This document shows, one piece after another, positions 111-48,836 of a stretch of 64,000 bases of DNA; the stretch's first letter is position 1; every line of letters starts with the position of its first letter. The notes under the pieces are model-generated. The model was given only the letters and a program-made list of their open reading frames with translations, had not been told where the DNA came from and did not search any database. A program made the position numbers and the translations under genes. This stretch comes from Pollenia angustigena (lineage: Eukaryota > Arthropoda > Insecta > Diptera > Polleniidae). The stretch is taken from assembly GCA_930367215.1 (NCBI GenBank), contig OV884059.1, positions 77,285,393-77,349,392 on the forward strand, read 5' to 3'.

Positions 111-204
111 AAAATCAAAATTGTTCTTATTTAGGATGTTCTTCAAAACTCTATAATTTTTCCAATTAGAACCTATGTACCAAACTTCATTAAATTATGT
201 TTAA

Positions 205-395: not shown

Positions 396-820
396 TTCAC
401 CAAAAAAATTTCGATATCTAATAAACTGATCTATAGACAATATGATTCAATAATTCTAAAGTAGAAATTGTTTTCGATCGAATAACGAAAAAATTATTTT
501 GTTATTTGTTTGTGTTGTTATTTGCTAAGAAAATTTTTCATTCTAAAAACTATTGAAAAATTCTAAAATATTCATATTAAATTTTCATTTGGACTTTTAA
601 AATATTTGCGGTATTAAAAGCGTAATTTTTATTTGAATATACGAAAATCTTAAAATTCGAAAATGTCTCAACTCTGCTACGTAAATAACTTCGTTATGGA
701 TCGGTTCATTATGACCCAGAAACATGTTTGTTTTTTTAATTAAAGGTTGCAGCAAACGAATTATTACTTGATAACCTCAATTTTGGTCATCTTAATTTAA
801 ATGACTTACATGCTTTATGT
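396..820. other. AT-rich DNA without recognised features
   Basis: No reading frame, RNA signature or inverted repeat that I could support. Confidence 0.5.
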
Positions 821-1049
821 AAATCAATCACTGCGCTGCATTTGATGCGATTCTGTGATTATATAACGATGCTCATGAAAATCAGCTGATGCCGAAGAAT
901 GTTTGCCGCGCAATTTGGTTATATTTTTGATGCTTGTTATTAGATCGTCTACTTTTGCTATGTATTTTTAAACAGCTGACATTTGCGGTGATGCCAGATG
1001 CTGCTTTTACAAACAATCTGCGCATCAGATGCAGCGCAGTGATGCATTT
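821..1049. mobile_element. MITE with ATCACTGCGCTGCAT terminal inverted repeats
   Basis: The left end reads ATCACTGCGCTGCATTTGAT and the right end, reverse complemented, ATCACTGCGCTGCATCTGAT, followed by GCG on both arms. The match extends a few bases outward with mismatches. About 220 bp long, non-coding, no clear TSD, superfamily unassigned. Confidence 0.65.
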
Positions 1050-1246
1050 CCGAACAGGCCCTTAATTCTTTGTTTTAAAATTCAAAGGCATCAGTTATAT
1101 TTGTTTCGGACTTTAATATATTAGACAAATATATAAAACAGTTATTCTTATTTTAAAAAACTTTGGGTACTGGGAATTTCCGCTTGTTATATGAAATCGT
1201 TCCTGTTTTTTAGTTGGCCTTGAATCTATTTTTTCTTATTGCTGTT

Positions 1247-1395
1247 TGTGAGGACATGGTTCTTTGATTTTTCCTGTTTAACTGAATATTTAAAAAAAAA
1301 ATATGCAGTTAAACAAGAAAAATTAAAGAACCATGAACTCACAAATTTAAAATATACATTTAAACAAGAAAAATGAAAGAACCATGTCCTCATAT
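1247..1395. repeat. Inverted repeat with an extra internal copy
   Basis: GAGGACATGGTTCTTTGATT at the left is answered by the reverse complement near 1370-1393. A third partial copy in right-arm orientation lies at about 1306-1346. Probably a small foldback MITE. Confidence 0.6.
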
Positions 1396-1399
1396 GTTA

Positions 1400-3937: not shown

Positions 3938-4398
3938 CAGAGTTCCCAGTTTTATTTTATCGCCAATTTGTGATCCCCAAAAATCCCCAAAATAGCAATT
4001 TTCTTATCCCCAAAAATCCCCACATTTTCTTAAAAATAAAATAGATAATATTATGTCAATGGAAAAATATGCATACATCGATTTATTTATATAAATCCAT
4101 TTGTGTAATATAATTAAAACTAATGTTATTTATTCTTTGAGTTCTTCGTATCTATGGACACATGTATAGTATGTAACTAGGGTAACGTAAAAACACAAAA
4201 GAAAAATAACCATGCGTCAATACATAGTTATCATTTCCAAAACTAGTGAATCCATAATCTTCTAATTCATAAGTCAAAGCAATTTTTATTTACATGTTGT
4301 TTGTTTAAAAAGTGCATTTAAGATTATTGAATAAATTTGTCACAGCATGCTGCATTATTTCAAAGTGTGTATTTATTCTAATAAGAGCTCCTAATAAC

Positions 4399-4600
4399 TC
4401 ATATTGTATTCTGTTGCAAATATTGATTTTGGTTGTATTCATTACAGAAAAAAGCTAGTTCAACAGAAGAAACGCTAGTTGGTACAAAAAGCATATTTAA
4501 ACCTATTTCAACAAGTTCTTGAAATAGTTTAAAACCGGAAAAAAAAATTTGTACCCACATATTGACCAAATCGGTCTTGCCATCGCAAAAATGAAATTTA
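4399..4600 (-). pseudogene. hAT transposase C-terminal (dimerisation) remnant
   Basis: The minus-strand frame includes LFVPTSVSSVELAFF, resembling the conserved PATSxxSERxFS segment of the hAT dimerisation domain near the transposase C terminus, followed shortly by a stop. The frame runs into the nested MITE at 4608, so only about 65 residues of transposase origin remain. It sits inside a TSD-flanked hAT element, which supports the call. Not functional. Confidence 0.6.
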
Positions 4601-4607
4601 TAATAAT

Positions 4608-4877
4608 CAGGTATGTGATGAAAAACGATCGTTTTCAAAATGATAGTTTTTAGTAGGTGTGATGAATTTCGACCGGTTTTAAAATCCATTTCTGAAGTAA
4701 AGTCTTTATTTTTTGTCCAAAATACAGTTTAATTAATATATTTAATAAAGAATTTAACAGAATATATAAATGAAAACGGAGGAAAATGTATTAGAAATCA
4801 ATTTTTAAAGATACCGAAAACGATATTATCGTTTTCAAATCGTTTTGTTTTCAAAATCGTTTTCCATCACATACCTG
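4608..4877. mobile_element. Nested hAT-like MITE, CAGGTATGTGATG ends
   Basis: CAGGTATGTGATGAAAAACG at the left is matched by the reverse complement of CGTTTTCCATCACATACCTG at the right. The flanking octamers are AT-rich and match only partly, so the TSD is weak. It interrupts the hAT transposase remnant. Confidence 0.65.
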
Positions 4878-5029
4878 AATATTTTATCCCCAAAAATCCC
4901 CAGCTGAATAAGTGCTTTTCCCTAAAAAATCCCCTGGGGATTTTAACGAAATTTGTATCCCCAATTACAAAAAAAAATAAATCCCCAACTGGAAACACTA
5001 AATCTGACCGCAAAACCTTAAACTCTCTA

Positions 5030-5075
5030 GAGAGAGAGAGAGATTAAGAGAGAAAGAAAAGGAGAAGGAGAAGAT
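5030..5075. repeat. GA-rich microsatellite
   Basis: A GA dinucleotide run passes into imperfect GAGAAAG/GGAGAA purine sequence. Confidence 0.7.
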
Positions 5076-5090
5076 AATATACCACAAATT

Positions 5091-5289
5091 CAAGGCGAAT
5101 TCAACTACAGGTGGTGTCGGAACTACAACAATCCAAAAACAACAGAAACAGCATACGGTTTTTTTCATTGCATTGCTAGTGCTTTAAATGTCAACCATTC
5201 TTAGCAAAACACTAACAAATCAGAACAAATAAGCTCGAAATGTCAAAATCAGATGCCGTTTCGACACGACCTGTAGTTAATTCGCCTTG
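5091..5289. mobile_element. hAT MITE, CAAGGCGAATT family, TSD CACAAATT
   Basis: CACAAATT is present at 5083-5090 and 5290-5297. Termini are CAAGGCGAATTCAACTACAG and the inverse of TGTAGTTAATTCGCCTTG. Non-coding, 199 bp. A second TSD-flanked member lies at 60640-60853 and a fragment near 23143-23160. Confidence 0.85.
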
Positions 5290-5330
5290 CACAAATTCTT
5301 AAAAAAGTAGAAAACAATGCAGATTTATCA

Positions 5331-6667
5331 GGGTAGACCAGGGTTGATAAAATTGGTACATTTGTACTTTTTTGGTACAATTCAAAACTAAAAAGTACGC
5401 TGGTAACACCGTGACTCATTTGGTACTATTTCTAAATTTTTCAAACCTACATATTTATAATTGATATAAAATGGCAACTCGTATTTACTGTCCAATGAAT
5501 ATAAGCGGAGTTTGGTGTTTGGTGCAAATAGTCTTGCGAGAATGCAAAATGTCGTACCTTTTTTATGAAATATAAGGGAAACTCTATTTTTTGTTTTTGG
5601 ATTTAAAAAAACAGCTATGCTATTTTGCATTTGCTCTTTTGTAAGACCATTTGCACCAACACTCCGCTACTTTGAATAGATTTTTGCACTTGTTTATTGA
5701 ACGATTGCTTATGCCACACTCTAAATTTAGTATCATCGGCGTGCATTTTCTGATGACATTGACAAGATATAAGAAACCATTTCTACAATAGTTCTAGAAG
5801 AAGAGACGACTTCCTCTCATTTCAAGATTATTTTGGAACGGAAACTCATAATATTTGGAAAACTAACTATTTTGAAAAATCCGGGGCTCTAAATTAATTT
5901 TTGACCAATGGTTTCTTTGGCAAAGTTTCTTGGAATGACTTATACAACAAGAATCGCTATGTGCTATTGAAGGGAAAAAGTTTAGCCCACCCTATTATTA
6001 TGTATAATTAATGTACTAATGAATTTTAAGTACCTTTTGTTATTGTTGTATTAATTTTTTGTTTTTAAAAATAAAATAAAACAAATTTATAAAAAAAGAT
6101 TTAGTACTATTGGGGCCGAAAAAGAACTATTTTAAAAGTTCGTTGGTACGATATTGGTTTTCTCATTTGTCATCCCTGGGGTAGACTCATTTAGGACAGT
6201 TATAATATCCCTATCGTCAACCCTGCAAATAATAGGACCAGTCCAAACACGCGTGTAAAGAGTAGTCCACAAGGGACCAGGACTAGTCCAAAAGTAACCC
6301 AAACGTATGGAAAAAACCTGGTCTATTTAACATTACAGTGTCCTAGGAGAGGACCATATAACCCACCTTTGGACCACTAAGGACTAGTTTTAAAACTACT
6401 CCATGGTATACTCAAGAGGATAAGTTTTGAAGTCGTTTAAAAACGAAAGCATGTCGTTAAAAAACGAAGACATGTCGTCTCACTACAAACACTTTTTAAC
6501 AATGACATGGTCCATGCTTGCATTACATCGGACCAGTCCATGGAGTAGTCTATTTTATCAAAATGGATCAGGTGGTCCAGTTTTATTTGCAAGGAAGTTA
6601 CGTATGTATGATCTAAAAAATGTGCAGTCGGTCTTTTTTGCAATGCTTTCCATAATGAGTCTACCTT
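5331..6667. mobile_element. TIR element (GGTAGACTCATT ends) split by a hAT insertion
   Basis: GGTAGACTCATT at 6180-6191 is the inverse of AATGAGTCTACC at 6656-6667. The left terminus was hit by the hAT at 5339-6178, so part of its TIR (GGGTAGAC) now appears twice as that element's TSD. Without the insert it is about 490 bp. The interior has recurring GGACCAGTCC and GGACTAGT motifs in both orientations. Superfamily unknown. Confidence 0.6.
5339..6178. mobile_element. hAT element with 8-bp TSD GGGTAGAC
   Basis: GGGTAGAC occurs at 5331-5338 and 6179-6186. Ends are CAGGGTTGATAAAATTGGTA and the inverse of CATTTGTCATCCCTG. TTGGTAC-type motifs recur just inside both ends. At 840 bp it is non-autonomous, and no intact transposase segment was recognised. 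Confidence 0.85.
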
Positions 6668-9179
6668 GTTAAATGTGCCTTGGTAGAAAAGTTTCTACTT
6701 TTGCGTTAATTTTAGAGAAATCTGCTTAAACATGTTTAAACTTTTCAGACAAGAATTGTTTATTGTTCTAATTTCCTTTCCTAGATATTTCCTTTAAGCA
6801 CGATGTAAATTAAGTTGGTAACATTCCGAAACGCTTCATCGGAGTAAGTGGTGCATGTTGTTAGTTGAAAATGTATTGCTTTCATCATACTGGCAGCACA
6901 GCGGGAAAACTCAGAAGACCTTCTTACTTCATTTTTTTGATTTAATTAGTATTTTTATCTAACTGCTAAAGAATGCCTCATAGAAGGCTTCGGCTCTTTC
7001 TCTACTATGAGAAGGAAGAAGAGAAGGAGTATAATTTTTTGTTTTATGATGAAAAGATATGAGTATGGAATGGAGCGAGCAGTAAGCAGCGCGAAATTTT
7101 CCGAAAGAAATTTCTGATTTTGCAATATCCCAAACAAAAGTTAGAACAGAATTAATTTAACATGCCCTGCGGGAAATTTGTGTTAATTGGTTTTAAGGCA
7201 CATATCCCGTGACAAGTGAAAGCAGTTTTATAATAAAAAGGAACGAATTGTGATAGGTTAACGCAAGTTGAAAAACAACTTGCCATGTAACTGGATTTTG
7301 CGTGGGTAATTACTGATTGATTCTACCTGGTTCTATTACTTTAAATGAAGGGGATCCGCCCTAATAACATGGTTCAGTCGGGACAATATTTGCGACAGGC
7401 ATTATTTTAACTGAAATTTAATGTGCCCATTTAGGTTATTTCTGTGACCTGTTACAAAGCGTCAAAAAGGTGCCAATTAACCCCCTCGTAGGACATCGCC
7501 ATGTTAAAGTGACAAGTCCCCTTCATATAAAGTGTTAGAACTCGAACCGGTCCCTATCACTATAGAACTGTCACGTGACAAGTTAAGTGTTAGTTCCCTT
7601 TCCTCAAGGGTGTGGAGTAGTTAGTTCTGTTACACAAAGCAGATCTCTACTTCGGTACTTGTTTTAATTCCGGCACGGACTAGTATAATTCAGAGCTACA
7701 GTGTTGAAATCTGATACAGCAGAAATAAAAGTGAAATAGTTGGTGATAAGATTACCACACTTGGTCAAAAGGTTGTAAGTTATTTCGTAGAACAGCTAAC
7801 TTTTATAAAAGAAAGTTTTAGCAAGCGATTATTGCTTATAGCTCAGATCTGCATTTTGTAAATCTCTTTTTACAGATTCTGCTTGAAAAAATTTCTCTTC
7901 TTTTAAACTTTTGTTTTAATATTTTTCACTGACAACTTCTGACATTTAGTAATTTTCACTTAAAACAAGTTGCATTTTTATATCATTTAAAGTGAAATTA
8001 TGACAAACTCAAATAAATTCAATTAATATTTCCAGCAACACACATGTTGGAGTGTTTGACAAATTATCTTAAACTATTTTTGTTTTCCATATAAATAATC
8101 ATTAAAGTCATTGGTGTTTAAAGATAAATTTCTATTTTGTGACATAAAATCAATTTCTGGTTAAGCCGTAAATACCATGCAAAATATGTTGAATCTTCAA
8201 CTGCTGATATTTTGACTGAACTTAGAAGACTGTGAAAACACACTAAACTTTTCAGAGAAAAATTAAGGTATCCATGTTGTAAGGTATCCCCAGTATAAGG
8301 TACATTCTAAAGAACTGGATTCCGGACACAATCATTTTTTTTTTATTCTGTCTTCGAACACTACATCGAAATACAAATACAAACTTACCTCCGTATGAGA
8401 ATTGTTTAAAACTTCTTAATCTTCCAACCCTAAAAAATCGGAGGATGTTTATAAAAGTCTCCTTTTTTGTTATATACTAGAAACTATAGATTTAATTATT
8501 TAAAGGCTACCAGACTTCCTACTGTCAATTCATTGGCAAATTAAGTAAACAAAATAAAATTTTTAAAATCAGTTAATAGTGATTTGTTATAAACATAAAG
8601 TAGGGTACTTGACTGCTAGAAAAAAAACTTTAAATAGTTTTCTTTTCTATAATTTGATTTCGATTAATAAATATTGCTATTTGACGTTCAACCACCGTTC
8701 GTTCGTTAATCTTTTTTTTATTTGATTTACTTAATAAATTTTCTATTTATTAATTAGTTTTTAAGCAACACCATCTTCATCATCAACAACATCATGTTGA
8801 TTTATTTATCTAGACATGTTGAAGTAGTCGTATCTGAACGAGAGGTACCTGTTTATTGGCCGTTTTGTTACATGTCACTTGGTCTGTTCAGACGTCAGTT
8901 TTTTTTAGTGTCTGTGTACTACAAATGTAGTTTGCTAATGACGATGTAGTTTATTTTGATATTTTTTAACTATAATTTTTGCAGCAGAGATTAAGTTGAT
9001 TCAATTAGTTAAGCTTTCGTTTATAATTATCTGGCGGGTAGCATTTTTTATACTGGATTTTCAACGTATTTGAATATATTTTAAGTAGTTAAAGACGTGT
9101 TAATAAAGTTTCATACAATTGGGTTTGAAAAATGCAAGTAGTATGCCAAATTTGAATAATGGATTTTTTGATGGTAAGG
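6668..9179. other. AT-rich DNA, mostly unassigned
   Basis: A weak inverted repeat around ACTTTAAATGAAGGGGA (7340s) and TCCCCTTCATATAAAGT (7517-7533) may bound an old MITE. No protein domain or RNA gene is supported. Confidence 0.45.
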
Positions 9180-11015: not shown

Positions 11016-13598
11016 TTTATTTTTTTAAAGGCATACAAAATTAACTACTAACGTTTCAAATGAATTAAGCCTTAAAAATTTATTACCATTAAAATTAAAG
11101 TTTTTTTTTAGACATTTTTAAATATCTTAGTCTGACATTTAAAAATAAAAAAGGCTTATAAAAGGTTTTTGAAACGGAGTTTCTATCAAAATTTGTTTAA
11201 CCCTCAAATCACCTTTAAAAAAGCTTACGTAAGTTACCCTCGTGTGTGGTTTTTCAAACATATGCAATGTCAGTCTACTTTGCTATGGCGCCATAGCTCG
11301 TTTGTAATCTAAATCATGATTTACGTAACAATAATTATGTATTTTCCCTGTTTGTGATCAACAACTAAGCGTACAAAGCTTGTGTGCAAGCACTCATTTT
11401 ATAAAACATGCATTAAATGCAGTTCGCGAGAATATCAAACGACAGAAAATTTTGTCTATAAAGCAAATAACATAGAAACTACATATATGTGGAAAACCAC
11501 TCACGAGGGCCGTTATTTGCCTGAAAGTTCTGAAATATTTCTTTACTAAAAATAGTTTTAAATCAAAAAATGCGTTTCCAGTATTTAATTGATGTTGCTT
11601 ACAAAGTTGTTTATCGTGTTTAAATTATTATTTTTGTGTGGTTTTTAACACAATGTTAATAAACTTTTTATTTACCTGTGCATAGAACTTAAAGCTTTAT
11701 AGCTTTTGTTATATTAAAGTTAAGCTCAGATTTCAAACGTTTAGTATACAGAAAAATTAAAACTTTTTTCAATTATATGACAGAAAAGCATTGAGCTTCA
11801 TGTTAAAAGCAAGCTTAGAAGCTACCTGCAATACATACAAAGCATATTGTTTTTACAGCTTAATGATTTGACTTTTATTTTAATTCAAAGCTTTAAAATA
11901 AGACAAAATATGGATATTTTTAATATGCGCTACAGATTCTAGCACAAACACATAGTAAACATAATGTTGTAGGGTACAAATATTTAAGTCTACATTAACT
12001 GGCTCTTATTGGAAACCGATTGTTAAAATAAACATCCATGAGTTTGTGGAATTTGGAATGCATTTTTAGTTTAGATTCATAATTCAATTTCTCCTTTGGC
12101 TTCTTTAGAGTCACCAAGAAAATTATCCTCTTAAGCCCCTTAGCAAGTTTTTAAATGCATATTTCAATTGACTATAACAAATGCTAATTTACCATAAATC
12201 AAACCTCAAGAGAAATTAATTTCATCAATAATTTTGCCTTTTTATTTCAATTCGATTATTATTTAAATTTAAGTACATAAAACGATTTATATTAACGAGT
12301 AACTCAACAAAATTATGCAAATTTCTTGCATTTAAATTTAACAAGTTTGGATATGTCATTTTAAAGACCCATTCATTTCCAGAAGAAAAAAAATTTTAAA
12401 AACAAATAATTCAAACTATTTAATGGTCAAATAGGTTTATAAAACAAATTGCTTGTTATAATATCAAAACTTGATCGCACAAAAAAAAAGCAAAAATGTT
12501 TGAGGAGGGAGTGAATTCAAGCGGAATGTGTTAAATTTATTTTACAACAAAAAAATATCAACAATTTGCTGGTAATTTGATACTCTATTTGTTAATAAAC
12601 ATTTAAATGTTTGGGCATTAAGTCAAAAGTTATTATTGAATTTATTTTAGCTCCATGAGCATTTTATGCATATGTTTTATTTTTGTATTTAAATATTTGA
12701 GAGTGTGAGGAAATATGAACTAGTTTTTGCTTAAAAATTTTTTTAATATTATTTCTGGTATATTTTTGTAGGTGCTATTTGCTGTTTTTGCTATTTATGT
12801 GTTAATATTTGTTTTGTATTTAATGTTTGATTATTAAAATTTAGTTTATATTTATTGTATTTATGTTTATTATTCTTATATTTATTTTAAAAGTTAAACA
12901 TTTTTATGGGACTATAAAGCATGTACGATTTAGTTTATATTAATTTGTTTTTGTTTTATTATAAACGAGACAAATGGAATGTGCCAAGTGTTTAGACGAA
13001 TTGAAGACTTCCATCACAAAACGATATAATTCCATTGAAAATTGTTCTTATGTTTTATACCATATACCAGTTTTTATTTTTGGCATTAAATTGCAGCCAA
13101 ATTATTGACATTAAGAAAAATTTATAGCAAAGCTTAAATACATTTTAGTATTCAGAAAAGAATTCAAGAACAAAAAGAATAAAGAAAAAAGTTAGAGGCA
13201 ATCGTGACATTTTGCTCAAATCTTAGCCATTTATAGACCGATCTAGCTGAATTTTATAAGCAAAATTTAACGAAGATGTGACAGAAATAAATAACAACCA
13301 AGTTCCCATCATATCTTGGGTCTTCAGAAAACCCATTTCAACAGACAGACAGACAAACAGTGAGACGGATATCATTCAATCAACTTTGCTACTCATTACG
13401 ATCAAGAACATATAAACTTCATAGTTTCTAAAATCAATATTGTTGAAATTACAAACGACATGACAAACTTGTATATCAATTGTTTTCCAAATACGAACTC
13501 TGTAACCTACTTAATAGCAAAAGACTCTTGTTCCGGCTCAATCATGAACCATTACAATTTCAACATATAATCAAGATATTATTAAAAGTTTAAAGAAA
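11016..13598. other. AT-rich DNA, nothing recognised apart from a weak dispersed-repeat trace
   Basis: Around 13230-13400 there is AGACCGATCTAGCTGAATTT and CAGACAGACAGACAAACAG, typical of degraded dispersed non-coding repeats in flies. No coding potential. Confidence 0.45.
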
Positions 13599-13601
13599 CT
13601 A

Positions 13602-14694
13602 CACCATTTTTCATTTAAAATGAGAAAATTCAAGATGAAATTGAGAAAATTCCAAATGAAATTGAGAATTTCAATTTGATATTGAGAAAATTCCAATTGA
13701 AAATGAGAAATTCAATTTGATATTGAGAAAATTCCAAATGAAATTGAGAATTTAAATTTGAAATTGAGAAATTCCAAATGAAATTGGGAAAATTTAATTT
13801 GAAATTGAGAAAATTCCAACTGAAATTTAGAAAATTTCAAATGAAATTGAGAAATTTTAATTTTTCATTGATAAAATTGAATTATCTATATAATTTTTAT
13901 TATATTCATTCAACAAACATACATAACTAACAAGGATCGAAAAATATGAAAATAAATACAAATCGCAGTATTATTGACCAACAGGCATATCTTCCAGATC
14001 CAGAGCAGATTGGTAAAACGATGAAGTATGTTGTATGGCTCTACTGAAATCTCCAGTAGTTATACATGTATTAGAAGCATTAATCATCTGTTCTAAAAAG
14101 ACAAGCCTCTGTTCTCCTACATGGGTGGGAATTACGTTCGGTACATTCATCGTTGTTGTTACCGTACTTTTTATTTTTGACCAAATAATTTCAATGGGGT
14201 TAAGCATCGGTGAATAGAAGCTCAATCGCAGGAGCGTAGCTGGAGAGTTGTCAGAAATAATTTGTAGCCGACTGTGGCATTGAGCATTGTCACATACCAA
14301 TACGAAGATCTGGATGCCTGTTGGTCAATAATACTGTGATTTTTATTTAGTTTAATTTTTTTCGATCCTTGTTAGTTATGTATGTTTGTTGAATGAATAT
14401 AATAAAAATTATATAGATAATTCAATGTTATCTAGGAAAAATTAAAATTTCTCAATTTCATTTGGAATTTTTTCAATTTCAAATTTAAACTTCCCAATTT
14501 CATTTAGAATTTTCTCAATTTCAAATTGAAATTCTCAATTTCATTTGGAATTTTCTCAATTTCAAATTGATATTCACAATTTCAATTGGAATTTTCTCAA
14601 TTTCAAATTGAAATTCTCAATTTCATTTGGAATTTTCTCAATTTCAAATTGAAATTCTCATTTGGAATTTTCTCATTTTTAATGAAAAATGGTG
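13602..14694 (-). mobile_element. Tc1/IS630-type element with ~400-bp inverted repeats
   Basis: CACCATTTTTCATT at the left and its inverse AATGAAAAATGGTG at the right are each bordered by TA, as expected for Tc1/mariner insertion. The arms stay complementary for about 400 bp. They contain a tandem array of a roughly 30-bp motif (GAAATTGAGAAAATTCCAA-like) on the left and its inverse on the right, then TATATAATTTTTATTATATT and CATACATAACTAACAAGGAT. Only about 310 bp of unique transposase sequence remains in the middle. The arrangement looks like an internally deleted, foldback-like derivative. Confidence 0.82.
13971..14300 (-). pseudogene. DDE transposase fragment (Tc1/IS630 type), C-terminal half
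   Basis: About 109 residues. VCDNAQCHSRL carries the second catalytic Asp in the DNAxxH context, and YSPMLNPIEIIWSKIKS carries the third acidic residue (Glu) in the SPxLNPIExxW context. There are 32 residues between them in this frame, near but not equal to the 34 of canonical Tc1 elements. The first catalytic Asp and the DNA-binding domains are missing and the frame runs into the right inverted arm, so no active enzyme is encoded. The stop follows a short tail ending MPVGQ. Confidence 0.82.
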
Positions 14695-14756
14695 TAGAGT
14701 TTTTTCCACATATACCAAAAATTTTCATTGTTTTCGAATTTTGCTTTTCCGGAAAA

Positions 14757-18059: not shown

Positions 18060-18215
18060 TTGGTAAAAAAATTTTGGCTGGCAGGCACCGCCAACCCGAT
18101 CCCCAGCTCAGCCAAGAATAAAAATTATCAATAAATTTTAATAAATTTCATGTTGTAAAATTCCTTCCTTCAGTAAAAATAATTTAATGAAAATTAAATT
18201 TGATGAACTCAAGCC
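18060..18215 (+). mobile_element. Old truncated copy of the hammerhead retroelement family
   Basis: GGCAGGCACCGCCAACCCGA, then CAAGAATAAAAATTATCAAT, TTTCATGTTGTAAAATTCCT and GAACTCAAGCCTAACTAAAA follow the 3' part of the family at 31562-34228. The ribozyme core is absent, so it is 5' truncated or eroded. Confidence 0.7.
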
Positions 18216-20106
18216 TAACTAAAAAAAATATGTATATATGTATATCAAAAGCTCTAATGTTAACATTTGTACATCAAGTTGTACAAATAAAATGTCGCCG
18301 AAAGTGGACAAAAAACGATATTCACTTGTCCGCCTTTTTGTTTGTAGGCTTAAATCGGTTTTCTGAAGACCCCATGTATGGTCGGATTAAGGTTGTTAAG
18401 CATTTACATTGCATATTGTACTGTCAAAATTCAACCAGTTCGGTCTACAAATAGGGAAGAAAACACCACAAATTTTGGTGCTAAAATCAACTTTAAGATG
18501 AGGAAGAGCTGCTGTTGTACATCTATAGTTTATAGGCAGATGAAATGATCGTTAATTTTTTTATTTGTTTTTTTTTTCTAAAATATAAACAAATATTTTT
18601 AATCTTACCAAACCGAATCACACTAATTAAAGCAATAAAATAATGACAAAATCCAACAAAAAGCTTAATTTATACATTTGTTTTAAATTTTTATTATCTT
18701 TTTTCGGTTTATTTTAACAAGTTTAACGATTAAATGTGTTTTATATTTATTTTTTATTTTCGTTAAGTGCCAATTAATTAAAATGCATTTAAATCATGTT
18801 TGCTACCGATGGGCAGCTTCTAAAACAAACACAAGGGGAGACCCCCTTAATTTAAAAAGCAGAAGCTTAAAATTGTAAAATCAAAAAGGTACAAAGAAAA
18901 AATGTTTTATAGAAACCTAAATATCCGGCTACTAACTTGTCATTAATGTCGAAAATTAAAAAATACTTGCACTAGAGCATTTGAAGTAGATACAGATGGG
19001 TCTTTAAGAAATTTTTTTTTTTAATTTTTAACGCCACACGCATACTAACACACATTTTATCACCAACATTATTAAACCCATTTATAAAATTTTCAAATAT
19101 GCTTTAATTTTCTCTTTAGCCCAGATTAATATTTAAAATATTTTCAAATAAAATTAAAAACTAAAAATTGTATTTAATGTGTTTGATACCGGTTTGTATT
19201 TTTTCCCCCCATAAATCTTCATTAATGTCGGAATTTTTATTTAAGATTTTTTTTTTTTTTGCATCTGAACATTTTACTGTTTAGTTTGTGGTTGTTTTGA
19301 TTTCGATAAAAATTAAGATATTTTACAATAAAATCCATAAACAGCAATACAATGCCCGTTTTTTTGTTCAAATATTTACCCAACACTCATGATCGAAATG
19401 TCATGTTCGTGTTAGAAAACAATTTAAATGTCGTTTTTTGTAGAAAAGATCAAAGATTTGTTTAAGAAAAATTTTAATTGATGGATTGTTTACGAAAATA
19501 GGCAAATGAGGAAATTAAATATATTTTCGGGGATTTTTTTTTTTTTTTTAATTAATGAGATTTTGGTTAAGAGGGCTGGATTTAGACATGACCCACAGAA
19601 AGTGTCGTGTTTACATGATATGAATATTAAATTGTTAGTGTTATTTATGCGATAGCGGATTATCGAGGGATTTGTATACGATTGTCATTGAAACAGGTGA
19701 GAAATCAAAGATTTATGAGGAAGAGTTTTAAACATAATTAATATACGGGGCATTCCATACCAAGTCGGATAATTAAAAAAAAATTTTTTTTTTTTTTTGG
19801 TAAAATGCTTTTTTGACCGCCTTTTACTCACTGCAAATGGATGAAACTTTGCAGGCATACATATTCCCGATGACAGTACACGAATACATGGGGTAGCCAG
19901 GAAAAAATCTAGAGGGGCGGGCAAAATTTTTTTTAAATGTTCTTTTTTAAGAAAACCGTTTCTTAAAAAAAAATTTTTTAAATGTTCTTATTTATAACTT
20001 TCTTAATAATGGTCCATATTTTTTTTTTTTTTTTTTGTGAAATCTTCCTTTTTTGTGTTTTTAAAGAAAAAAATTGAAAAATAATTTTCAAATAGAAACT
20101 GGGAAT
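18216..20106. other. AT-rich DNA with short repeat traces
   Basis: 18340-18450 (TCTGAAGACCCCATGTATGG ... CGGTCTACAAAT) resembles 26990-27110, a degraded dispersed repeat. Several long A or T runs lie at 19535, 19770, 19960 and 20018. No gene seen. Confidence 0.45.
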
Positions 20107-28010: not shown

Positions 28011-28468
28011 ATTAAGGGAAAAATATTATGATGGAATTTTTCGAATATATGTATATGGTCATAATATGATTCAATAATTATCGTAATATGTTGACCACAA
28101 TCATAATTCTTATCATAACATGTTGCTCTTAGAATATTTAACCACAACCATATTTTTTCTTTGCGTGTATATAGCAATTAATCTAGAGACAAAAGATAGT
28201 CAAACTGCATACTTCATTTATTCCTTATCTTTTTCCCATTTTAAACGACTTAAAATTTTTCGAAAATGCCTTTTTTAATTTATTTTTTTTAATATTAATA
28301 TTTATTTTTTAATCCAAATTTTTAATATTTTTAATTAGGCTTAAGTTCATGAAATTTAATTTTTATTAAATTATTTTTGTGAAGAAAGGAATTTTACAAC
28401 ATGAAAATTAATTAAAATTGTTATTGATAATCTTTCATTCTTGACGTGGCTCGGGATCGAACCCTGGC

Positions 28469-28529
28469 CGGCAGGTTACCATGACATGTTTCGATCGCAA
28501 CCACTCGATCTCCTCAGATGGATTTGCCG
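28469..28529 (-). ncRNA. Type I hammerhead ribozyme motif (left arm of dimer)
   Basis: Reverse complement of the motif at 28934-28994, with all core bases present. It lies in the inverted arm, so a transcript through the dimer in either direction contains one sense ribozyme and one antisense copy able to pair with it. Confidence 0.85.
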
Positions 28530-28933
28530 TCTTACACTCGCAGCCATCGACGACTGCTGACGTCACTAGTCAAACATCAATCCTTAAACCAAATTGTATT
28601 TTAACATTTGGTAGATCGAAATTTGCTTTCCTGAATGATTATCCATCTTAATTGATTTTACATGTTTTTTCCTTTACTTCTGTTTTTTCGTACTTTCGTC
28701 AAGAATTTTTCTTGAAGTCCAAGTACATTTTACATTTTACTTGGACTTCAAGAAAAATTCTTGACGAAAGTACGAAAAAACAGAAGTAAAGGAAAAAACA
28801 TGTAAAATCAATTAAAATGGATAATCATTCAGGAAAGCAAATTTCGATCTACCAAATGTTAAAATACAATTTGGTTTAAGGATTGATGTTTGACTAGTGA
28901 CGTCAGCAGTCGTCGATGGCTGCGAGTGTAAGA

Positions 28934-28994
28934 CGGCAAATCCATCTGAGGAGATCGAGTGGTTGCGATCGAAACATGTCATGGTAACCTGCCG
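28934..28994 (+). ncRNA. Type I hammerhead ribozyme motif
   Basis: Core: CTGAGGA (C3-U-G-A-N-G-A9), stem II GATCG/CGATC closing loop AGTGGTTG, GAAA (G12-A-A-A15.1), a very short palindromic stem III in ACATGT, and cleavage site GTC with scission predicted after 28980. Stem I pairs CCAT with ATGG, then an AAT/TAACC internal loop, then CGGCA with TGCCG. Every universally required hammerhead base is present. A minimal stem III is typical of the hammerheads of Penelope-like elements and retrozymes, which often act as dimers. Confidence 0.9.
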
Positions 28995-29644
28995 GCCAGG
29001 GTTCGAGCCCGAGCCACGTCAAGAATGAAAGATTATCAATAACAATTTTAATTAATTTTCATGTTGTAAAATTCCTTTCTTCACAAAAATAATTTAATAA
29101 AAATTAAATTTCATGAACTTAAGCCTAATTAAAAATATTAAAAATTTGGATTAAAAACCATAAATAGTTCAACAAAATAACCACAATACTAATTATTAAT
29201 ATTTATTTTTATTAGCAAATTCGGTGCCAAATAGAAGAGAAGGCTCTGTAGAATTTTATAAAAATATTTTCTCTAGTTCTCCTGAACAATTTTTGTAAAA
29301 TGTTAAGTCCTCTCTTTAAAAGGACAAAAGATGAGGAAATGATAAATCAAGTATGCAGTTTGACTATGTTTTGTCTCTAGACTAATGGCTTAATTATGTA
29401 GTTTCTTCCAAATAGAAAAAGTTAAAATTTGTCACACTGTGTAATAATAGGCAATTAAAGAGATATAGCGAAATCGAAATTTCATATGCACTACTGTTAT
29501 CAAAAAGCCGGTACTTTATTCAACAAAACTGCTGACAGAATATAAAAACAGAGTATAAGCGTACACAGAGGACTTTATTTTGGTAGCAGTAAAAAAAATT
29601 TGTTAGCAGCATTGCTTAATGCAGCACAAATTCGAAAACGAACA

Positions 29645-30000: not shown

Positions 30001-31767
30001 ACTGTGTTACCTGTTTGGCTATTGGTCTAGGGATTTCTTTTGGAAATTTGAATGCAATAAGTTGGATAAGTTAATAAATTTATTTGAATGATTGTAATAA
30101 TTTTATTAAAACTACTTAGTAGGGTATTCATTCGGTTAATTTCAAATTGGCTTTTTTCGATTAACGATTAAACCGGATAATTTCAGTCGATTAACCGATT
30201 AACCGATGCAACAAACATTTCAATATTTTGTAGTATTATAACATATTTTTTGTGTTTTTAACTATTTGTTTCGTCTCACATACAAAATGTATGTGTTTAG
30301 AAAATATTTTTTTATACAAACATAGAAGGTGGTAATTTTAACCCATTTTCCGCCGTCCGGTGATTAAAATTACAATGTTTTTCAATGTTTTTTTATCTTC
30401 ATCATCGATCAGCAGTGGCAAAAAATAGGTTAAATGTTTGATTGTCAACACCTTTTTTTGTTTCACATTTATCATATAGGCTTTTTATACTTGCTCGCAT
30501 CTTTCATCTTATAGCAATGATGATAACATCTTCCCATAAGAATTGTACAGATCTTAAAATCAACATCTTTCTTCATCTTTAAAAGATGTTCATATCTCAT
30601 GTTGTTTCATTCAACATCTTTCGATTATTTTAGTGTCATCACTAGAAAAAACAAATAATTTGTTAAAAACTATATACCATCACTAGAAAAAAATACAAAG
30701 GAGCAGGACAGCAATATCATTTATTTACTTTTTATTCGCTCTTAGACTTGAAAATAAATATTTTTGTGATGAAAGATGAAAGATGTTACAAATGTAAACA
30801 AGTTTTTTTCATTTTTAACATCTTCCCCGCATACCTTTAAGATGTGCTCAAGTGTTAAAAGGCTAATACATACTTCTCATATCAGTCTTTTAACAGAATT
30901 AACCGAAACAATTAGAAGTGTTAAACATTTAAAAAAAAACTCTAATGGCATAATGGAGTATTTTATATGTTTAGAGAAATCCTGGAAAAGGACTGAGAAA
31001 TTAGATCTACGATAAGTAAAAGAATTTTTTCCAAGTCAAAAACTAAAGAAAAGAATCGCTTTAATCCTAAACATTTAAACCAAATTACTTTTCTTAAAGT
31101 TTTATAAAATCTCCTTTAACTATTGAAATAACTAATAAAATTATCTCAGCTTATCAAAGTAATTTCGTTCAGTTCAGCTAAGTCTTATGTCTTAAAATAA
31201 TGATGTACAAGAAATATATATCTTCGGCTTAATATGCAAACCGGATAAATCCACTTTTATGTAAATTGAGATGTTGATGCCGTGTGGTAGAGAAAGGCAC
31301 GCCTCGTCGACCAGCATGTAGTTTTTCTCCTATTTTAGTCTTGAAGTGTGTAAAACTAACTGTATTTTTAGTTTTCTATCAAGCTGAAAATAGGTAAAAT
31401 AAAAAGTTTTTTGTCTCTCCTGTAAAATGTGCTGAAAGTGAGTTAGCAGGTTTGCATAATAAGCCGGCGATATAACTGTTGTGGGCTACCGCTTATAATT
31501 TAGATTTCTAATGTACAGTTATGACGAATCAATGAACACAGCATTAAAATTTTTATTTTTAAAAATAATTAGTATTGTGGTTATTTTGTTGAACTATTTA
31601 TGGTTTTTAATCCAAATTTTTAATATTTTTAATTAGGCTTAAGTTCATGAAATTTAATTTTTTATTAAATTATTTTTGTGAAGAAAGGAATTTTACAACA
31701 TGAAAATCAATTAAAATTGTTATTGATAATCTTTCATTCTTGACGTGGCTCGGGCTCGAACCCTGGC

Positions 31768-31828
31768 CGGCAGGTTACCATGACATGTTTCGATCGCAAC
31801 CACTCGATCTCCTCAGATGGATTTGCCG
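31768..31828 (-). ncRNA. Type I hammerhead ribozyme motif (inverted arm of array)
   Basis: Reverse complement of the motif repeated in the direct units, with an intact core. The arm joins the first direct unit at 32090/32091. Confidence 0.85.
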
Positions 31829-32334
31829 TCTTACACTCGCAGCCATCGACGACTGCTGACGTCACTAGTCAAACATCAATCCTTAAACCAAATTATATTT
31901 TAACATTTGGTAGATCGAAATTTGCTTTCCTGAATGATTATCCATCTTAATTGATTTTACATGTTTTTTCCTTTACTTCTGTTTTTTCGTACTTTCGTCA
32001 AGAATTTTTCTTGAAGTCCAAGTACATTTTTTGTTTTTTCACTTTGTCTTTCTCTTTTCTGTTGACCTTTTTCAGCACAACTTGAAGGACAAAAAGGTCA
32101 ACAGAAAAGAGAAAGACAAAGTGAAAAAACAAAAAATGTACTTGGACTTCAAGAAAAATTCTTGACGAAAGTACGAAAAAACAGAAGTAAAGGAAAAAAC
32201 ATGTAAAATCAATTAAGATGGATAATCATTCAGGAAAGCAAATTTCGATCTACCAAATGTTAAAATATAATTTGGTTTAAGGATTGATGTTTGACTAGTG
32301 ACGTCAGCAGTCGTCGATGGCTGCGAGTGTAAGA

Positions 32335-32395
32335 CGGCAAATCCATCTGAGGAGATCGAGTGGTTGCGATCGAAACATGTCATGGTAACCTGCCG
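32335..32395 (+). ncRNA. Type I hammerhead ribozyme motif, array unit 1
   Basis: Same core as 28934-28994: CTGAGGA, GATCG/CGATC, GAAA, ACATGT, GTC. Predicted cleavage after 32381, exactly 562 bp before the next site. Confidence 0.9.
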
Positions 32396-32896
32396 GCCAG
32401 GGTTCGAGCCCGAGCCACGTCAAGAATGAAAGATTATCAATAACAATTTTAATTGATTTTCATGTTGTAAAATTCCTTTCTTCACAAAAATAATTTAATA
32501 AAAAATTAAATTTCATGAACTTAAGCCTAATTAAAAATATTAAAAATTTGGATTAAAAACCATAAATAGTTCAACAAAATAACCACAATACTAATTATTG
32601 TTAAAGCTAAGGCACGAGCTCTATGTGTACATTTGTCCTTCAAGTTGTGCTGAAAAAGGTCAACAGAAAAGAGAAAGACAAAGTGAAAAAACAAAAAATG
32701 TACTTGGACTTCAAGAAAAATTCTTGACGAAAGTACGAAAAAACAGAAGTAAAGGAAAAAACATGTAAAATCAATTAAGATGGATAATCATTCAGGAAAG
32801 CAAATTTCGATCTACCAAATGTTAAAATATAATTTGGTTTAAGGATTGATGTTTGACTAGTGACGTCAGCAGTCGTCGATGGCTGCGAGTGTAAAA

Positions 32897-32957
32897 CGGC
32901 AAATCCATCTGAGGAGATCGAGTGGTTGCGATCGAAACATGTCATGGTAACCTGCCG
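32897..32957 (+). ncRNA. Type I hammerhead ribozyme motif, array unit 2
   Basis: Intact core. The flanking base at 32895 is A where other units have G, outside the pairing regions. Predicted cleavage after 32943. Confidence 0.9.
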
Positions 32958-33458
32958 GCCAGGGTTCGAGCCCGAGCCACGTCAAGAATGAAAGATTATC
33001 AATAACAATTTTAATTGATTTTCATGTTGTAAAATTCCTTTCTTCACAAAAATAATTTAATAAAAAATTAAATTTCATGAACTTAAGCCTAATTAAAAAT
33101 ATTAAAAATTTGGATTAAAAACCATAAATAGTTCAACAAAATAACCACAATACTAATTATTGTTAAAGCTAAGGCACGAGCTCTATGTGTACATTTGTCC
33201 TTCAAGTTGTGCTGAAAAAGGTCAACAGAAAAGAGAAAGACAAAGTGAAAAAACAAAAAATGTACTTGGACTTCAAGAAAAATTCTTGACGAAAGTACGA
33301 AAAAACAGAAGTAAAGGAAAAAACATGTAAAATCAATTAAGATGGATAATCATTCAGGAAAGCAAATTTCGATCTACCAAATGTTAAAATATAATTTGGT
33401 TTAAGGATTGATGTTTGACTAGTGACGTCAGCAGTCGTCGATGGCTGCGAGTGTAAGA

Positions 33459-33519
33459 CGGCAAATCCATCTGAGGAGATCGAGTGGTTGCGATCGAAAC
33501 ATGTCATGGTAACCTGCCG
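33459..33519 (+). ncRNA. Type I hammerhead ribozyme motif, array unit 3
   Basis: Intact core. Predicted cleavage after 33505, 562 bp from both neighbours. Confidence 0.9.
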
Positions 33520-34020
33520 GCCAGGGTTCGAGCCCGAGCCACGTCAAGAATGAAAGATTATCAATAACAATTTTAATTGATTTTCATGTTGTAAAATTCC
33601 TTTCTTCACAAAAATAATTTAATAAAAAATTAAATTTCATTAACTTAAGCCTAATTAAAAATATTAAAAATTTGGATTAAAAACCATAAATAGTTCAACA
33701 AAATAACCACAATACTAATTATTGTTAAAGCTAAGGCACGAGCTCTATGTGTACATTTGTCCTTCAAGTTGTGCTGAAAAAGGTCAACAGAAAAGAGAAA
33801 GACAAAGTGAAAAAACAAAAAATGTACTTGGACTTCAAGAAAAATTCTTGACGAAAGTACGAAAAAACAGAAGTAAAGGAAAAAACATGTAAAATCAATT
33901 AAGATGGATAATCATTCAGGAAAGCAAATTTCGATCTACCAAATGTTAAAATATAATTTGGTTTAAGGATTGATGTTTGACTAGTGACGTCAGCAGTCGT
34001 CGATGGCTGCGAGTGTAAGA

Positions 34021-34081
34021 CGGCAAATCCATCTGAGGAGATCGAGTGGTTGCGATCGAAACATGTCATGGTAACCTGCCG
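34021..34081 (+). ncRNA. Type I hammerhead ribozyme motif, array unit 4
   Basis: Intact core. Predicted cleavage after 34067. The unit ends early, inside the TSD at 34229. Confidence 0.9.
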
Positions 34082-34340
34082 GCCAGGGTTCGAGCCCGAG
34101 CCACGTCAAGAATGAAAGATTATCAATAACAATTTTAATTGATTTTCATGTTGTAAAATTCCTTTCTTCACAAAAATAATTTAATAAAAAATTAAATTTC
34201 ATGAACTTAAGCCTAATTAAAAATATTAAAAATTTTTATTTTTATTTATTTTAAACCATTGTAATATATTACATATTTTGGATATAATGATGATAACCGA
34301 TTAAGCAAAATGTCGATTAAATTAATACCCTACTACTTAG

Positions 34341-41378: not shown

Positions 41379-42309
41379 ATCGGGTGATTGTTTAGCTATT
41401 ATCTTTTTGCCAACACTGGTTTAAACAGCTGACGCCCGTTTCGTGTTTTGTTTCACTGTCAAACATCTTCAGTTTGGTCTATAATTTAACCATGAATCGT
41501 CGTACAAACGAACAACGCTTGCAAATTATTAAATTTTGTTATCAAAATGCGTGCTCTGTTAAGAAAGTTCATCACGCGCGCTGCTTATCTTCAGCGACGA
41601 AGCTAATTTTTGGCTAAATGGGTACGTTAATAAGCAGAATTGTCGATTTTGGAGTGCAGATCAGCCAGAAGCCTTGCAAGAGCTACCAATGCATCCAGAA
41701 AAAGTCACAGTTTGGTGCGGTTTATGGGCTGGTGGCATCGTTGGACCATACTTCTTCAAAGATGAGGCGAATCGTAAGGTAACTGTGAATGGTGAGCGCT
41801 ACAGTGAGATGGTATCCAACTTTTTTTGCCCAAAATGCAAGAGCTTGACTTGCATTACATGTGGTTTCAAGTCGGTGCCACATGCCACACAGCACGCTTA
41901 ACAATGGACTTATTGAGAGGCGAGTTCGGTGAACATTTTATTTCACGTTCGGGACCGGTCAAGTGGCCGCCTAGATTGTGCGATTTAACGCCTTTAGATT
42001 ATTTTTTGTGGGGCTATGTTAAAACTCATGTCTATGCACATATGCCCGCTTCAATTGACGCATTAGAAGACAACATTAAAGCATTAATTCATGAGATACC
42101 GGCCGAAATGTTGGAAGGAGTATGCCAAAATTGGACTAATCGGATGGACCATTTGAGGCGCAGTCACGGTCAACATTTGCATGAAATAATCTTCAAACAT
42201 TTAATTATATGGACCGTACTATCGATTCAAATAAAGATTTCATGCATTTTTCTGAACTTTATGTGTTCTTTTAAAACTTTCCTATAGCTCTTAAAAAACC
42301 ACCCATTAT
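41379..42309 (+). mobile_element. Mariner-like (DD34D-type) element, internally deleted
   Basis: The left end near TATCGGGTGATTGTTTAGCT and the right end, inverted, ATAATGGGTGGTTTTTTAAG are imperfect TIRs next to TA-rich targets. The interior encodes pieces of a mariner-type transposase on the + strand. About 930 bp against a usual ~1.3 kb; the difference is a deletion at about 41580. A relative lies at 63642-64000. Confidence 0.82.
41492..42226 (+). pseudogene. Mariner-like transposase pseudogene
   Basis: Begins MNRRTNEQRLQIIKFCYQNA (N-terminal helix-turn-helix region) and jumps at about 41580 to LIFSDEANFWLNGYV with the first catalytic Asp, losing over 100 residues. The frame shifts at the T run near 41821, after MVSNFF. 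Where relatives have a DG in FQxDGATCHTA this copy reads FQVGATCHTA, so the second catalytic Asp is gone. The third Asp survives in CDLTPLDYFLWG at 41997-41999. The C terminus HLHEIIFKH is present. Deletion, frameshift and active-site loss each inactivate it. Confidence 0.88.
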
Positions 42310-46681: not shown

Positions 46682-46820
46682 AAATCTAGTTTACCGACGC
46701 AGCTCCAAATGAGAAAAAAGTACGTAGAAAATTGAAAAATAAGAAAAAAAAATTAAATAAAAAAATTGGCGCAAACGCTTAGTTTTCGAGTTATGGACGT
46801 TTTTAGTTTTCATAGAAATA

Positions 46821-47337
46821 ATTAGTATTGTGGTTATTTTGTTGAACTATTTATGGTTTTTAATCCAAATTTTTTTAATATTTTTAATTAGGCTTAAGTT
46901 CATGAAATTTAATTTTTCATTAAATTATTTTTATGAAGAAAGGAATTTTACAACATGAAAATTAATTAAAATTGTTATTGATAATCTTTCATTCTTGACG
47001 TGACACTCAATAAAATCAATTAAAATGGATAATCATTCAGGAAAGCAAATTTCGATCTACCAAATGTTATAATACAATTTGGTTTAAGGATTGATGTTTG
47101 ACTATTGACGTCAGCAGTCGTCGATGGCTGCGAGTGTAAGACGGCAAATCCATCTGAGGAGATTGAGTGGTTGCAATCGAAACATGTCATGGTAACCTGC
47201 CGGCCGGGGTTCGAGCCCCAGTCACGTCAAGAATGAAAGATTATCAATAACAATTTTAATTAATTTTCATGTTGTAAAATTCCTTTCTTCATAAAAATAA
47301 TTTAATGAAAAATTAAATTTCATGAACTTAAGCCTAA
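46821..47337 (+). mobile_element. Hammerhead retroelement, third insertion, 13-bp TSD
   Basis: TTTCATAGAAATA flanks it at 46808-46820 and 47338-47350. The left arm (46821-~47004) is the inverted 3' part of the unit ending at CTTGACGTGAC; the right arm (~47008-47337) is a direct, 5'-truncated unit with the ribozyme. The opposite arm of the host palindrome reads TTTTCATAGGAATATG without an insert, confirming boundaries and TSD. Confidence 0.88.
47142..47202 (+). ncRNA. Type I hammerhead ribozyme motif with stem II covariation
   Basis: Core as at 28934-28994, but stem II is GATTG/CAATC instead of GATCG/CGATC: a C-G pair has become T-A through changes on both strands of the stem. Cleavage predicted after 47188. 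The following box B-like arm is GGGGTTCGAGCCCC, a perfect small stem in this copy. Confidence 0.9.
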
Positions 47338-47388
47338 TTTCATAGAAATATGTAATTTTTCCACAACATTTCTAAAGGTACACAGAGA

Positions 47389-47623: not shown

Positions 47624-47818
47624 ATGGCCAATATCGGTATCATTCTGAAGTATTTACTAGATCTTTCTGGATATGTAGAATTTATTTAAAAATTTTTAAC
47701 TCTTAGGCTTATATTACAGTTTTTGTGTACTAAGTGTATAATTTATTTAAATAAAAGTGTAATACAAATTTTATAAAATAACAACCACCAATGTCGCAAA
47801 CAAAACCTTCATGCTTAG

Positions 47819-48060
47819 GCGCCCTTCGGCCGGACGCAAAGATTTTTTTCTCTATGGTATAAACAACACCGACTTCGCTAACTTAAGCTTCTCTGTATAG
47901 CCGGCCTTCGACCGGGCGCAAGGATTTTCTACTCTATGGTATAACAAACACCGGCTTCGCTGACTTAAGCTTCTCTGCATAGCCGGCCTTTGGCCGGGCG
48001 CAAAGTTTTTCTCCTCTATGGTATAACAAGCCCCGGCTTCGCTAACAAGAACTTTTCTGC
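47819..48060 (+). repeat. GC-rich tandem repeat, ~82-bp unit, three copies
   Basis: GCCGGCCTTCGACCGGGCGC and variants (CTTCGGCCGGACGC, CCTTTGGCCGGGCGC) start at about 47820, 47900 and 47982, each followed by AAGG/AAAG...TCTATGGTATAAC and CACCGGCTTCGCTGACTTAA. Each unit has a strong CCGGCC...GGCCGG-like hairpin. Similar TTCAGCGAAGCCA sequence lies in the core of the element at 55426-56006. Confidence 0.75.
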
Positions 48061-48836
48061 ACCTAAAAAATACTTAAATAAACCTAAATAGGAAAATATT
48101 ATGCGAATACAAAAACAAAGTACATATTTGCAATCATGAACAAATTACCTTTAATTTGAGTACCCACGCATATCACTAACTGGGAGGGGCAGTCTCTTGG
48201 TTCCAAGGGGCCCAACGGGCCTCAGCCCCCTTTAATTTTAATTTTGGTTTTTTTCTTTTATTATTCTGAATCGGGTGGCATATTTTTTTTTCGTAGCCCT
48301 TTAAGCTGCACTTTAGCAAAATCACATATTCCTATGAAAACTAAAAACGTCCATAACTCGAAAACTAAACGTTTGCGGCAATATTTTTATTCAAGTTCTT
48401 TCTTCTTATTTTTCAATTTTCTATCTACCTAGGTACTTTTTTTTGGAGCTGGGTCGGTAAACTAGATTTAAGCCAAGATTTTTGTGCTTATGTAAAAAAC
48501 TTTAGCATAAATTTTAATTTGAGTTTAAATGAATTATAAAATCAACATTGAGGTCATTACTTAATCGATTACTTTTAATAAATAAGTGGAATAACACATT
48601 CAAATGCAGGTCATTTAAAAAATCAGTATAAACATGTTGTAGAATTTCTAACAAACTAAGATATTGCAAATTACAAAATGCATTATTTAGTAATAAGACA
48701 TTACTCACTTAATTACTTTTAAGTAGAAAAACCTGGAAATTGAGCACTGCTCAGTTGTAAAGAAAAAGTTTTATATTCGGATGTTGCAAATCATACATAT
48801 TACCCTTCGCCACAGTTCTTGAAATTGTTCCCTAGT

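Follow-up and report, generated by a model that had tools for sequence, protein, structure and literature searches.

Tandem repeats with hammerhead ribozymes are known in animals from the pDo500 satellite of Dolichopoda cave crickets and from satellites of Schistosoma, which the repeat reported here resembles in arrangement rather than by any comparison of sequence. The closest described systems are the metazoan non-long terminal repeat (non-LTR) retrozymes (Cervera and de la Pena 2020, PMC7229834; here and below, each cited paper is represented by excerpts) and the Penelope-like elements (PLEs). Metazoan retrozymes carry a type I hammerhead in each unit, form tandem dimers to multimers, have a GC content below 45%, lack coding capacity, and give strongly self-paired RNA; their host genomes also hold PLEs with hammerheads, and PLEs are named, on other grounds than those considered here, as strong candidates for their mobilization (PMC7229834). 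PLEs insert with a head-to-head inverted pseudo-long terminal repeat (pLTR), partial tandems, a short target duplication, and an extension of one arm into AT-rich targets, and have a hammerhead (PMC3846280, PMC8969392, PMC11167929); Penelope has a 31-bp tail on one inverted pLTR (PMC3846280), and a purified lizard PLE, which has a preference for AT-rich ATT targets, cuts both strands, extends both, and starts at two adjacent places within its RNA (PMC11167929). In the excerpts of this literature, the enzyme that moves animal retrozymes and the cause of the inverted pairs of PLEs are left open. Here, we analyze a stretch of 64,000 nucleotides from Pollenia angustigena (contig OV884059.1, positions 77,285,393 to 77,349,392; the window), in which a noncoding 562-bp unit with a hammerhead motif forms a two-armed insertion at 31562-34235 (insertion B). 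Judging from sequence, we consider it probable that this unit is a metazoan-type retrozyme, which would be self-cleaved, probably circularized, and inserted by a PLE enzyme priming on both cut strands. The retrozyme idea itself comes from an earlier, sequence-only reading of this DNA; what is new here is the rule followed by the insertion ends, the covariation in the helices, and the scale.

A two-armed insertion of 562-bp units

Self-comparison of the window places direct copies of the unit at 32091, 32653, 33215, and 33777, bearing out the 562-bp spacing claimed by the sequence-only reading, and adjacent full units differ at one and two positions per 562 bases. That reading described a plain tandem array of four direct units at 31562..34228. 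The tandem direct units stand, but there are five units in all, one of them inverted (31562-32090) and head-to-head with the plus-strand array, whose 3.8 units run to near 34235. Overlooked until now were the inverted arm, the target-site duplications, the Penelope-type form, and two more copies in the window. Insertion B is a single insertion with two arms, flanked on both sides by a target-site duplication of 15-16 bp. Unit numbering starts at 32091, which puts the ribozyme cut after unit position 291.

31546 to 31561: left target-site duplication of insertion B, an exact 16-base match to 34229-34244 (15 without the last A)
31562 to 32090, minus strand: inverted arm of insertion B, 529 bases, about one unit, 99.8% identical to the unit; outer end at unit 509-515 (fixed 3' end)
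32091 to 34235, plus strand: direct arm of insertion B, made up of 3.8 units (562 bp each), with its outer end at unit 459
32532 to 32605, plus strand: putative reverse-transcription start zone (unit 442-515), example in unit 1, an AT-rich stretch followed by AACAAAATAACCACAATACTAATTATT; the zone holds both outer ends in 15 of 16 two-arm insertions
34229 to 34244: right target-site duplication of insertion B, overlapping the direct arm by 7 bases

Coding capacity had been said to be absent, and indeed the longest stop-to-stop frame in the hammerhead repeats has 86 amino acids. No reverse transcriptase (RT) or GIY-YIG frame was found in the units, and because of this we do not class the unit as a PLE. 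The unit has 183 G+C among its 562 bases, and its RNA is predicted to fold far more strongly than shuffled sequences (z −6.1; 0 of 100 as good). In composition, self-pairing, lack of coding capacity, hammerhead, and tandem arrangement, it is like the metazoan retrozymes (PMC7229834). Its size is not: retrozymes are given as ∼170-400 nt, and repeats of 150-450 bp are mentioned (PMC7229834). Because size is a description there, as far as the excerpts go, we keep the unit among the retrozyme kind despite its 562 nt.

Each unit carries a hammerhead motif

Each direct unit holds CTGAGGA, a GATCG/CGATC helix, GAAA, ACATGT, C, and a CCAT/ATGG helix. All motifs reported by the sequence-only reading are found, and its cleavage sites (32381, 32943, 33505, and 34067) are right, so that the first bases after the four predicted plus-strand cuts are 32382, 32944, 33506, and 34068.

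32335 to 32395, plus strand: hammerhead 1, cut predicted after 32381, core at 32347; outer helix I CGGC/GCCG by eye
32897 to 32957, plus strand: hammerhead 2, cut predicted after 32943, core at 32909
33459 to 33519, plus strand: hammerhead 3, cut predicted after 33505, core at 33471
34021 to 34081, plus strand: hammerhead 4, cut predicted after 34067, core at 34033
31768 to 31828, minus strand: hammerhead of the inverted arm, cut predicted at 31781/31782, core at 31816 (minus), identical over its 61 letters to the plus copies; outer helix I assigned by eye

Two kinds of evidence support the motif as a hammerhead. First, a descriptor requiring the core, a stem II of at least 4 bp, GAA, stem III, and a stem I of at least 4 bp matched eight times in the window versus once in 300 simulated windows (first-order Markov). 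Second, helix changes are compensated. Among 109 copies (48 distinct rows), from which those not spanning the motif had been dropped beforehand, 89 have C-G at one stem II pair, 19 have T-A there, and a single copy has this pair broken, while each of the remaining four stem II pairs is broken in 0-4. In 100 listed genome matches, the same pair reads C..G in 44 and T..A in 56 by eye, with no mixtures though the pattern permitted them. Moreover, in a second subfamily (seven units of locus L032; 52 of 562 bases differ, unit spacing 571-573), both halves of the stem II pair are changed with the core intact, and helix I, read without an alignment gap, goes from CCAT/ATGG to CCCT/AGGG; in the putative start zone, 2 of 74 bases are changed. 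As sequence evidence, these compensated changes support a hammerhead, but they represent few independent events.

An Rfam scan of the window at gathering thresholds listed nothing. The best match to Hammerhead_1 (32341-32386) scored 15.3 bits, below the cut-off of 34 (E 0.44 in a 161-base query), and covered all 45 model positions. The covariance-model check that the sequence-only reading had named as able to refute it thus formally went against it. We do not take the subthreshold score as refuting, because the match spans all 45 model positions and the helix changes between subfamilies are compensated. The same reading had called the ribozyme complete; every named motif is present in each unit, but helix III is merely A[CAUG]U or a self-complementary ACAUGU, and for that reason cleavage would probably require two units together. 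A weak helix III with a palindromic tetraloop is likewise described for axolotl HHR_Amex1 (PMC7229834).

Just past the predicted cut, every unit has an RNA polymerase III (Pol III) B-box-like GGTTCGAGCCC (32401, 32963, 33525, and 34087, plus strand), which in insertion C, described below, lies by eye inside a T-arm-like hairpin. As an internal Pol III promoter, this is a weak lead: The B box is strict, yet an equally good A box accompanies 27 of 137 random B boxes. The unit has two TTTT runs per 562 bases and none longer, about the expectation from its T content by our own arithmetic.

Insertion ends follow a long-short rule

Two further insertions in the window have the two-arm form.

28306 to 29197: insertion A, with a minus arm covering unit 43-478 and, head-to-head with it, a plus arm covering unit 49-509
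28293 to 28309 and 29194 to 29210: flank repeat of insertion A, 17 bases
46817 to 47339: insertion C, with a minus arm covering unit 326-509 and, head-to-head with it, a plus arm covering unit 114-442; the hammerhead has its core at 47154 and a compensated stem II pair
46808 to 46820 and 47338 to 47350: flank repeat of insertion C, 13 bases

Querying the genome with the unit yielded 562 candidates at first look. Forty were scored; by eye, these rows comprise 38 loci, and the scored copies are spread over five large contigs. We sampled 30 loci as short stretches, three of them within the window, and 20 with long flanks (L031-L050). Insertions A, B, and C and 12 of the 20 long-flank loci have two arms with their 5' ends inward; five of the 20 have a single arm. 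Ends were measured in 16 two-arm insertions: A, B, C, these 12, and L029, which lies outside the flank-repeat test. The count does not include L032 (which runs off its stretch), the nested L039 and L041, L027 and L030 (ends unseen or one arm), the one-arm L037, L038, L044b, L045, L049, and L050, or small extra fragments in L026, L047, and L049.

In 15 of the 16, one outer end lies at the fixed site (unit 507-515) and the other in the AT-rich stretch (unit 442-478). The two occur in either order (8 and 7 insertions) and lie 31 to 67 unit bases apart. If 15 long and 15 short ends were paired at random, this result would arise with a chance of 2e-4. Flank repeats of 10-17 bp border 13 of the 15 two-arm insertions tested, versus 2 of 500 random place pairs. 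At L046, a unit insertion of ∼1.9 kb interrupts a PLE array, with 3-6 bases common at the joins when compared with the next PLE copy. On this sequence evidence, L046 proves that the unit integrated into a known site, in this case with no duplication.

Copies across the genome and the history of arrays

The hammerhead pattern, with at most two mismatches, occurs at 29,176 places in the same 1.37-Gb genome; a reversed control occurs at none. The 100 places listed first, from the initial 6.4 Mb of contig 1, form 46 clusters, of which 11 are of mixed strand, all 11 reading minus then plus. Same-strand spacing among these places is 560-582 in 41 of 43 cases, and one array among the listed places has 13 units. 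Exact-pattern scans of viral and genome contig collections, which may omit records close to the genome of the window, found no relatives of the unit.

Median divergence between units is 0.64% within an arm, 0.54% between opposite arms of one insertion, and 2.1% between different insertions (84 unit passes, 24 insertions). At 16 of 17 two-arm loci, the exception being L034, fixed nonconsensus bases are common to both arms; arm-specific ones also occur. Because divergence within insertions is low and nonconsensus bases are common to both arms, it is probable that whole multimers were inserted at once, which is what a circular or multimeric RNA template would give; later unequal exchange may also have acted.

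Four different inserts resembling miniature inverted-repeat transposable elements (MITEs) occupy the same base of the unit (unit 240-242) at L022, L027, L028/L029, and L030. They have terminal inverted repeats (partly by eye) and TAA duplications, and we take them to be Harbinger-like. In the set of short loci, eight rows (seven loci) break at this position, and four of these loci were read. L029 has two successive 922-bp units with identical MITE copies (355 of 355 bases). At L041, a stop-to-stop frame of 1070 amino acids stands beside hammerhead units.

PLEs in the same genome

The sequence-only reading had advised searching the genome for longer relatives with an RT/GIY-YIG frame. PLEs with RT, GIY-YIG, and long frames are present, but no sequence link from the unit to a particular PLE was found. 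A GIY-YIG (PF01541) profile search gave 114 matches at E 0.01, with 150 of 493 candidates scored, and five of these lie inside open frames of 823-831 amino acids. Four PLE 5' regions (L051-L054) all contain long frames, and no CTGANGA core was found in them. At L052, a PLE start adjoins an inverted RT piece (RVT_1, 1.1e-7) head-to-head, as in the unit insertions. A hammerhead-like 35-mer, CCCTGAAGAAGTGAACATAAAATTCACGAAACGTC, lies downstream of the endonuclease of the L052-type family and has 211 genome copies (at most two mismatches); when matched against the first 100 listed places, it lies 217-790 (mostly 308) bases beyond 20 of 68 GIY-YIG matches. One copy of this minimal motif lies in L056 (309-343), and across the genome, several same-strand copies are ∼2.8-3.1 kb apart.

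A third PLE forms a tandem array on both sides of the L046 unit copy (188-9001), with open frames of 797 amino acids (cut by the insertion) and 833 amino acids and a 46-47% match to the RT fragment of L052. Its hammerhead-like motif (TTTC-CTGAAGA-A, a 7-bp helix, and GAAATATT-GAAA, by eye) lies upstream of each frame, at 575 and 5404. The motifs of both PLEs have an extra A after the core, which in the 35-mer stands before stem II, and are putative ribozymes.

Other features of the window

18097 to 18225, plus strand: older fragment D, 84% identical to the unit

About 20 bases downstream of fragment D is a 47-base match (79%) to unit 527-571. MicroRNA-like Rfam matches near 28.7 and 32.1 kb were rejected as microRNA genes; they coincide with the palindromic junctions of insertions A and B. 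At 13592-14704, long inverted arms of 41-bp tandem repeats surround a minus-strand frame, as in a foldback-like DNA transposon; the frame matches DDE_3 at 3.7e-6 and 27.3 bits, below the cut-off of 28.6. Two overlapping plus-strand frames at 41563-42287 gave no transposase family in a Pfam search at E 0.1, and by eye, we take them to resemble a decayed mariner-type transposase. A tandem repeat of 82 bp (3.3 copies) with GGCCGGCCTTCGGCCGG-like palindromes lies at 47794-48061.

Discussion

The claim of a non-autonomous, noncoding hammerhead retroelement of the retrozyme kind is supported by the tandem units, the motifs, the descriptor count, the compensated changes, and the genome copies; what the earlier reading had not seen is the form of insertion. 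Because the two arms, the one-sided extension, and the short duplication match PLE products, we class the unit with the metazoan retrozymes and its form of insertion as Penelope-type. From PLEs, it differs in having no RT or endonuclease frame, in an end difference of 31-67 bases as opposed to a 31-bp tail, and in arms of up to several units (PMC3846280, PMC8969392, PMC11167929). From retrozymes, it differs in its two-arm head-to-head insertions with the long-short rule, of which we found no description in the excerpted retrozyme literature (PMC7229834).

The shape of the insertions suggests copying by PLE enzymes, which would explain how such ribozyme elements move. We suggest that transcripts of tandem units would cut themselves at each hammerhead, probably with two units acting together, and that the resulting 562-nt RNA would probably be circularized. 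A PLE reverse transcriptase/endonuclease provided in trans would then cut an AT-rich target on both strands, with some 10-17 bases between the two cuts. Both target 3' ends would be extended on the RNA, one from the fixed site (unit ∼507-509) and the other from the AT-rich stretch 31-67 bases upstream. Each cDNA would run back, round and round where the template permits, and the two ends would finally be joined head-to-head.

Several observations weigh against this model. An isolated 69-mer is predicted to favor another fold (−18.9 versus −13.6 kcal/mol for the hammerhead, computed without helix III and loop contacts); such a prediction fits a ribozyme that acts as a dimer, while an inactive one would look alike. 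Some of the 109 copies have broken helix pairs or core changes, as expected of decaying copies. Flank repeats of at least 10 bases were looked for and not found in L031 and L046, only L045 was positive among six one-arm insertions, and the nested L041 was negative. The nested L039 and L041 have plus-then-minus neighbors. L039 also has a minus arm that ends at 510 opposite a plus arm that ends at 509; taken as one insertion, these arms would make a long-long pair, but their identities to the unit, 97% and 79%, argue against one insertion. L046 has outer ends at 508 and 124 and lost 28 target bases with no duplication; the interruption with target loss explains the odd second end. For 32 of 81 units, the nearest other unit sits in another insertion. 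The MITE of L029, present in the plus arm and absent from the minus arm, speaks against a single template. A search for similarity between the unit and six PLE pieces gave nothing beyond E 0.009, and the outer sides of one PLE pair (L055/L056), read by eye, showed no duplication. Finally, ribozyme mutants of the lizard PLE left in vitro insertion unchanged, the substrate was mainly unprocessed RNA, and reads ending at the cut were absent (PMC11167929, as excerpted); ribozyme processing, therefore, need not belong to insertion. In rotifers, head-to-head forms were attributed to self-priming on an antisense template, and no cross-mobilization between PLE types was seen, though pLTRs carrying a host gene in trans were described (PMC3846280, as excerpted).

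Among the alternatives, the one to which we give most room, while still holding it unlikely, is that the units are solo pLTRs of an autonomous PLE of this genome and not a separate noncoding family. The tandem and head-to-head forms are alike, hammerhead-type motifs occur in both, and several PLE hammerheads lie on one strand 2.8-3.1 kb apart. Yet when three PLE protein fragments are compared with L004-L050 and the window, they match one locus only (L046, the same as L020), where the unit copy is an insertion within the PLE array. The pattern counts are 29,176 for the unit versus 211 for the PLE motif, and the motifs differ: ACAUGU in the unit versus ACGU and AUAU in the PLEs, both of which also have the extra A. 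Nor is there reliable similarity of the unit to PLE pieces, in a comparison that covers a few PLE families; under lax costs, a value of E 6e-4 in an A-rich stretch is among the matches listed.

Slightly less probable again is movement by a long interspersed nuclear element (LINE)-type enzyme, with the inverted arm arising by twin priming. Twin priming yields inverted 5' parts and target duplications, with which the 10-17-bp flank repeats would fit, and its two segments are adjoining parts of one RNA. The arms studied here instead have as much as one whole unit in common, and the fixed end has no poly(A), a judgment made without examining the LINEs of this genome.

We think it improbable that insertion was of the PLE type with the head-to-head form arising by snap-back, the self-priming proposed for rotifer Penelope elements (PMC3846280, as excerpted), instead of priming on both strands. 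In A, B, and L044a, the inner arm ends are no more than 25 bases apart, as snap-back would have it; because this holds for only 3 of the 16 two-arm insertions, with 1.5 expected by chance, we do not favor it. Nor does snap-back predict that a long outer end should be paired with a short one.

Near-identical tandem units and the array of 13 would also be expected of ordinary satellite DNA that had spread through unequal exchange and kept its hammerhead by descent; we regard this as very improbable, given that the scored copies on five large contigs are short insertions with their own flank repeats and defined ends, that an interrupted target is visible at L046, and that helix changes are compensated. 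Least credible of all is a foldback-type DNA transposon with hammerhead-unit arms, which would have the long inverted arms but sits poorly with outer ends that differ between the arms of one element, variable lengths, and the single arm of 5 of 20 fetched loci (flanks were not searched for transposases).

Priming on both strands by a PLE enzyme, thus, is the reading we retain for this unit. Its extension to animals at large is more tentative, and we would not put it at even chances: Animal retrozymes may be parasites of PLEs, inserted by double target-primed reverse transcription from two sites of a ribozyme-processed RNA, one fixed and one chosen by AT-rich pairing, and the long-short rule may be the fossil record of an asymmetric enzyme dimer. 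With tens of thousands of hammerhead copies in one genome, many of which, in our sample, have readable ends and flank repeats, the mobilizing enzyme and inverted-pair insertion become countable questions, and the 562-nt unit is a defined RNA for testing PLE proteins.

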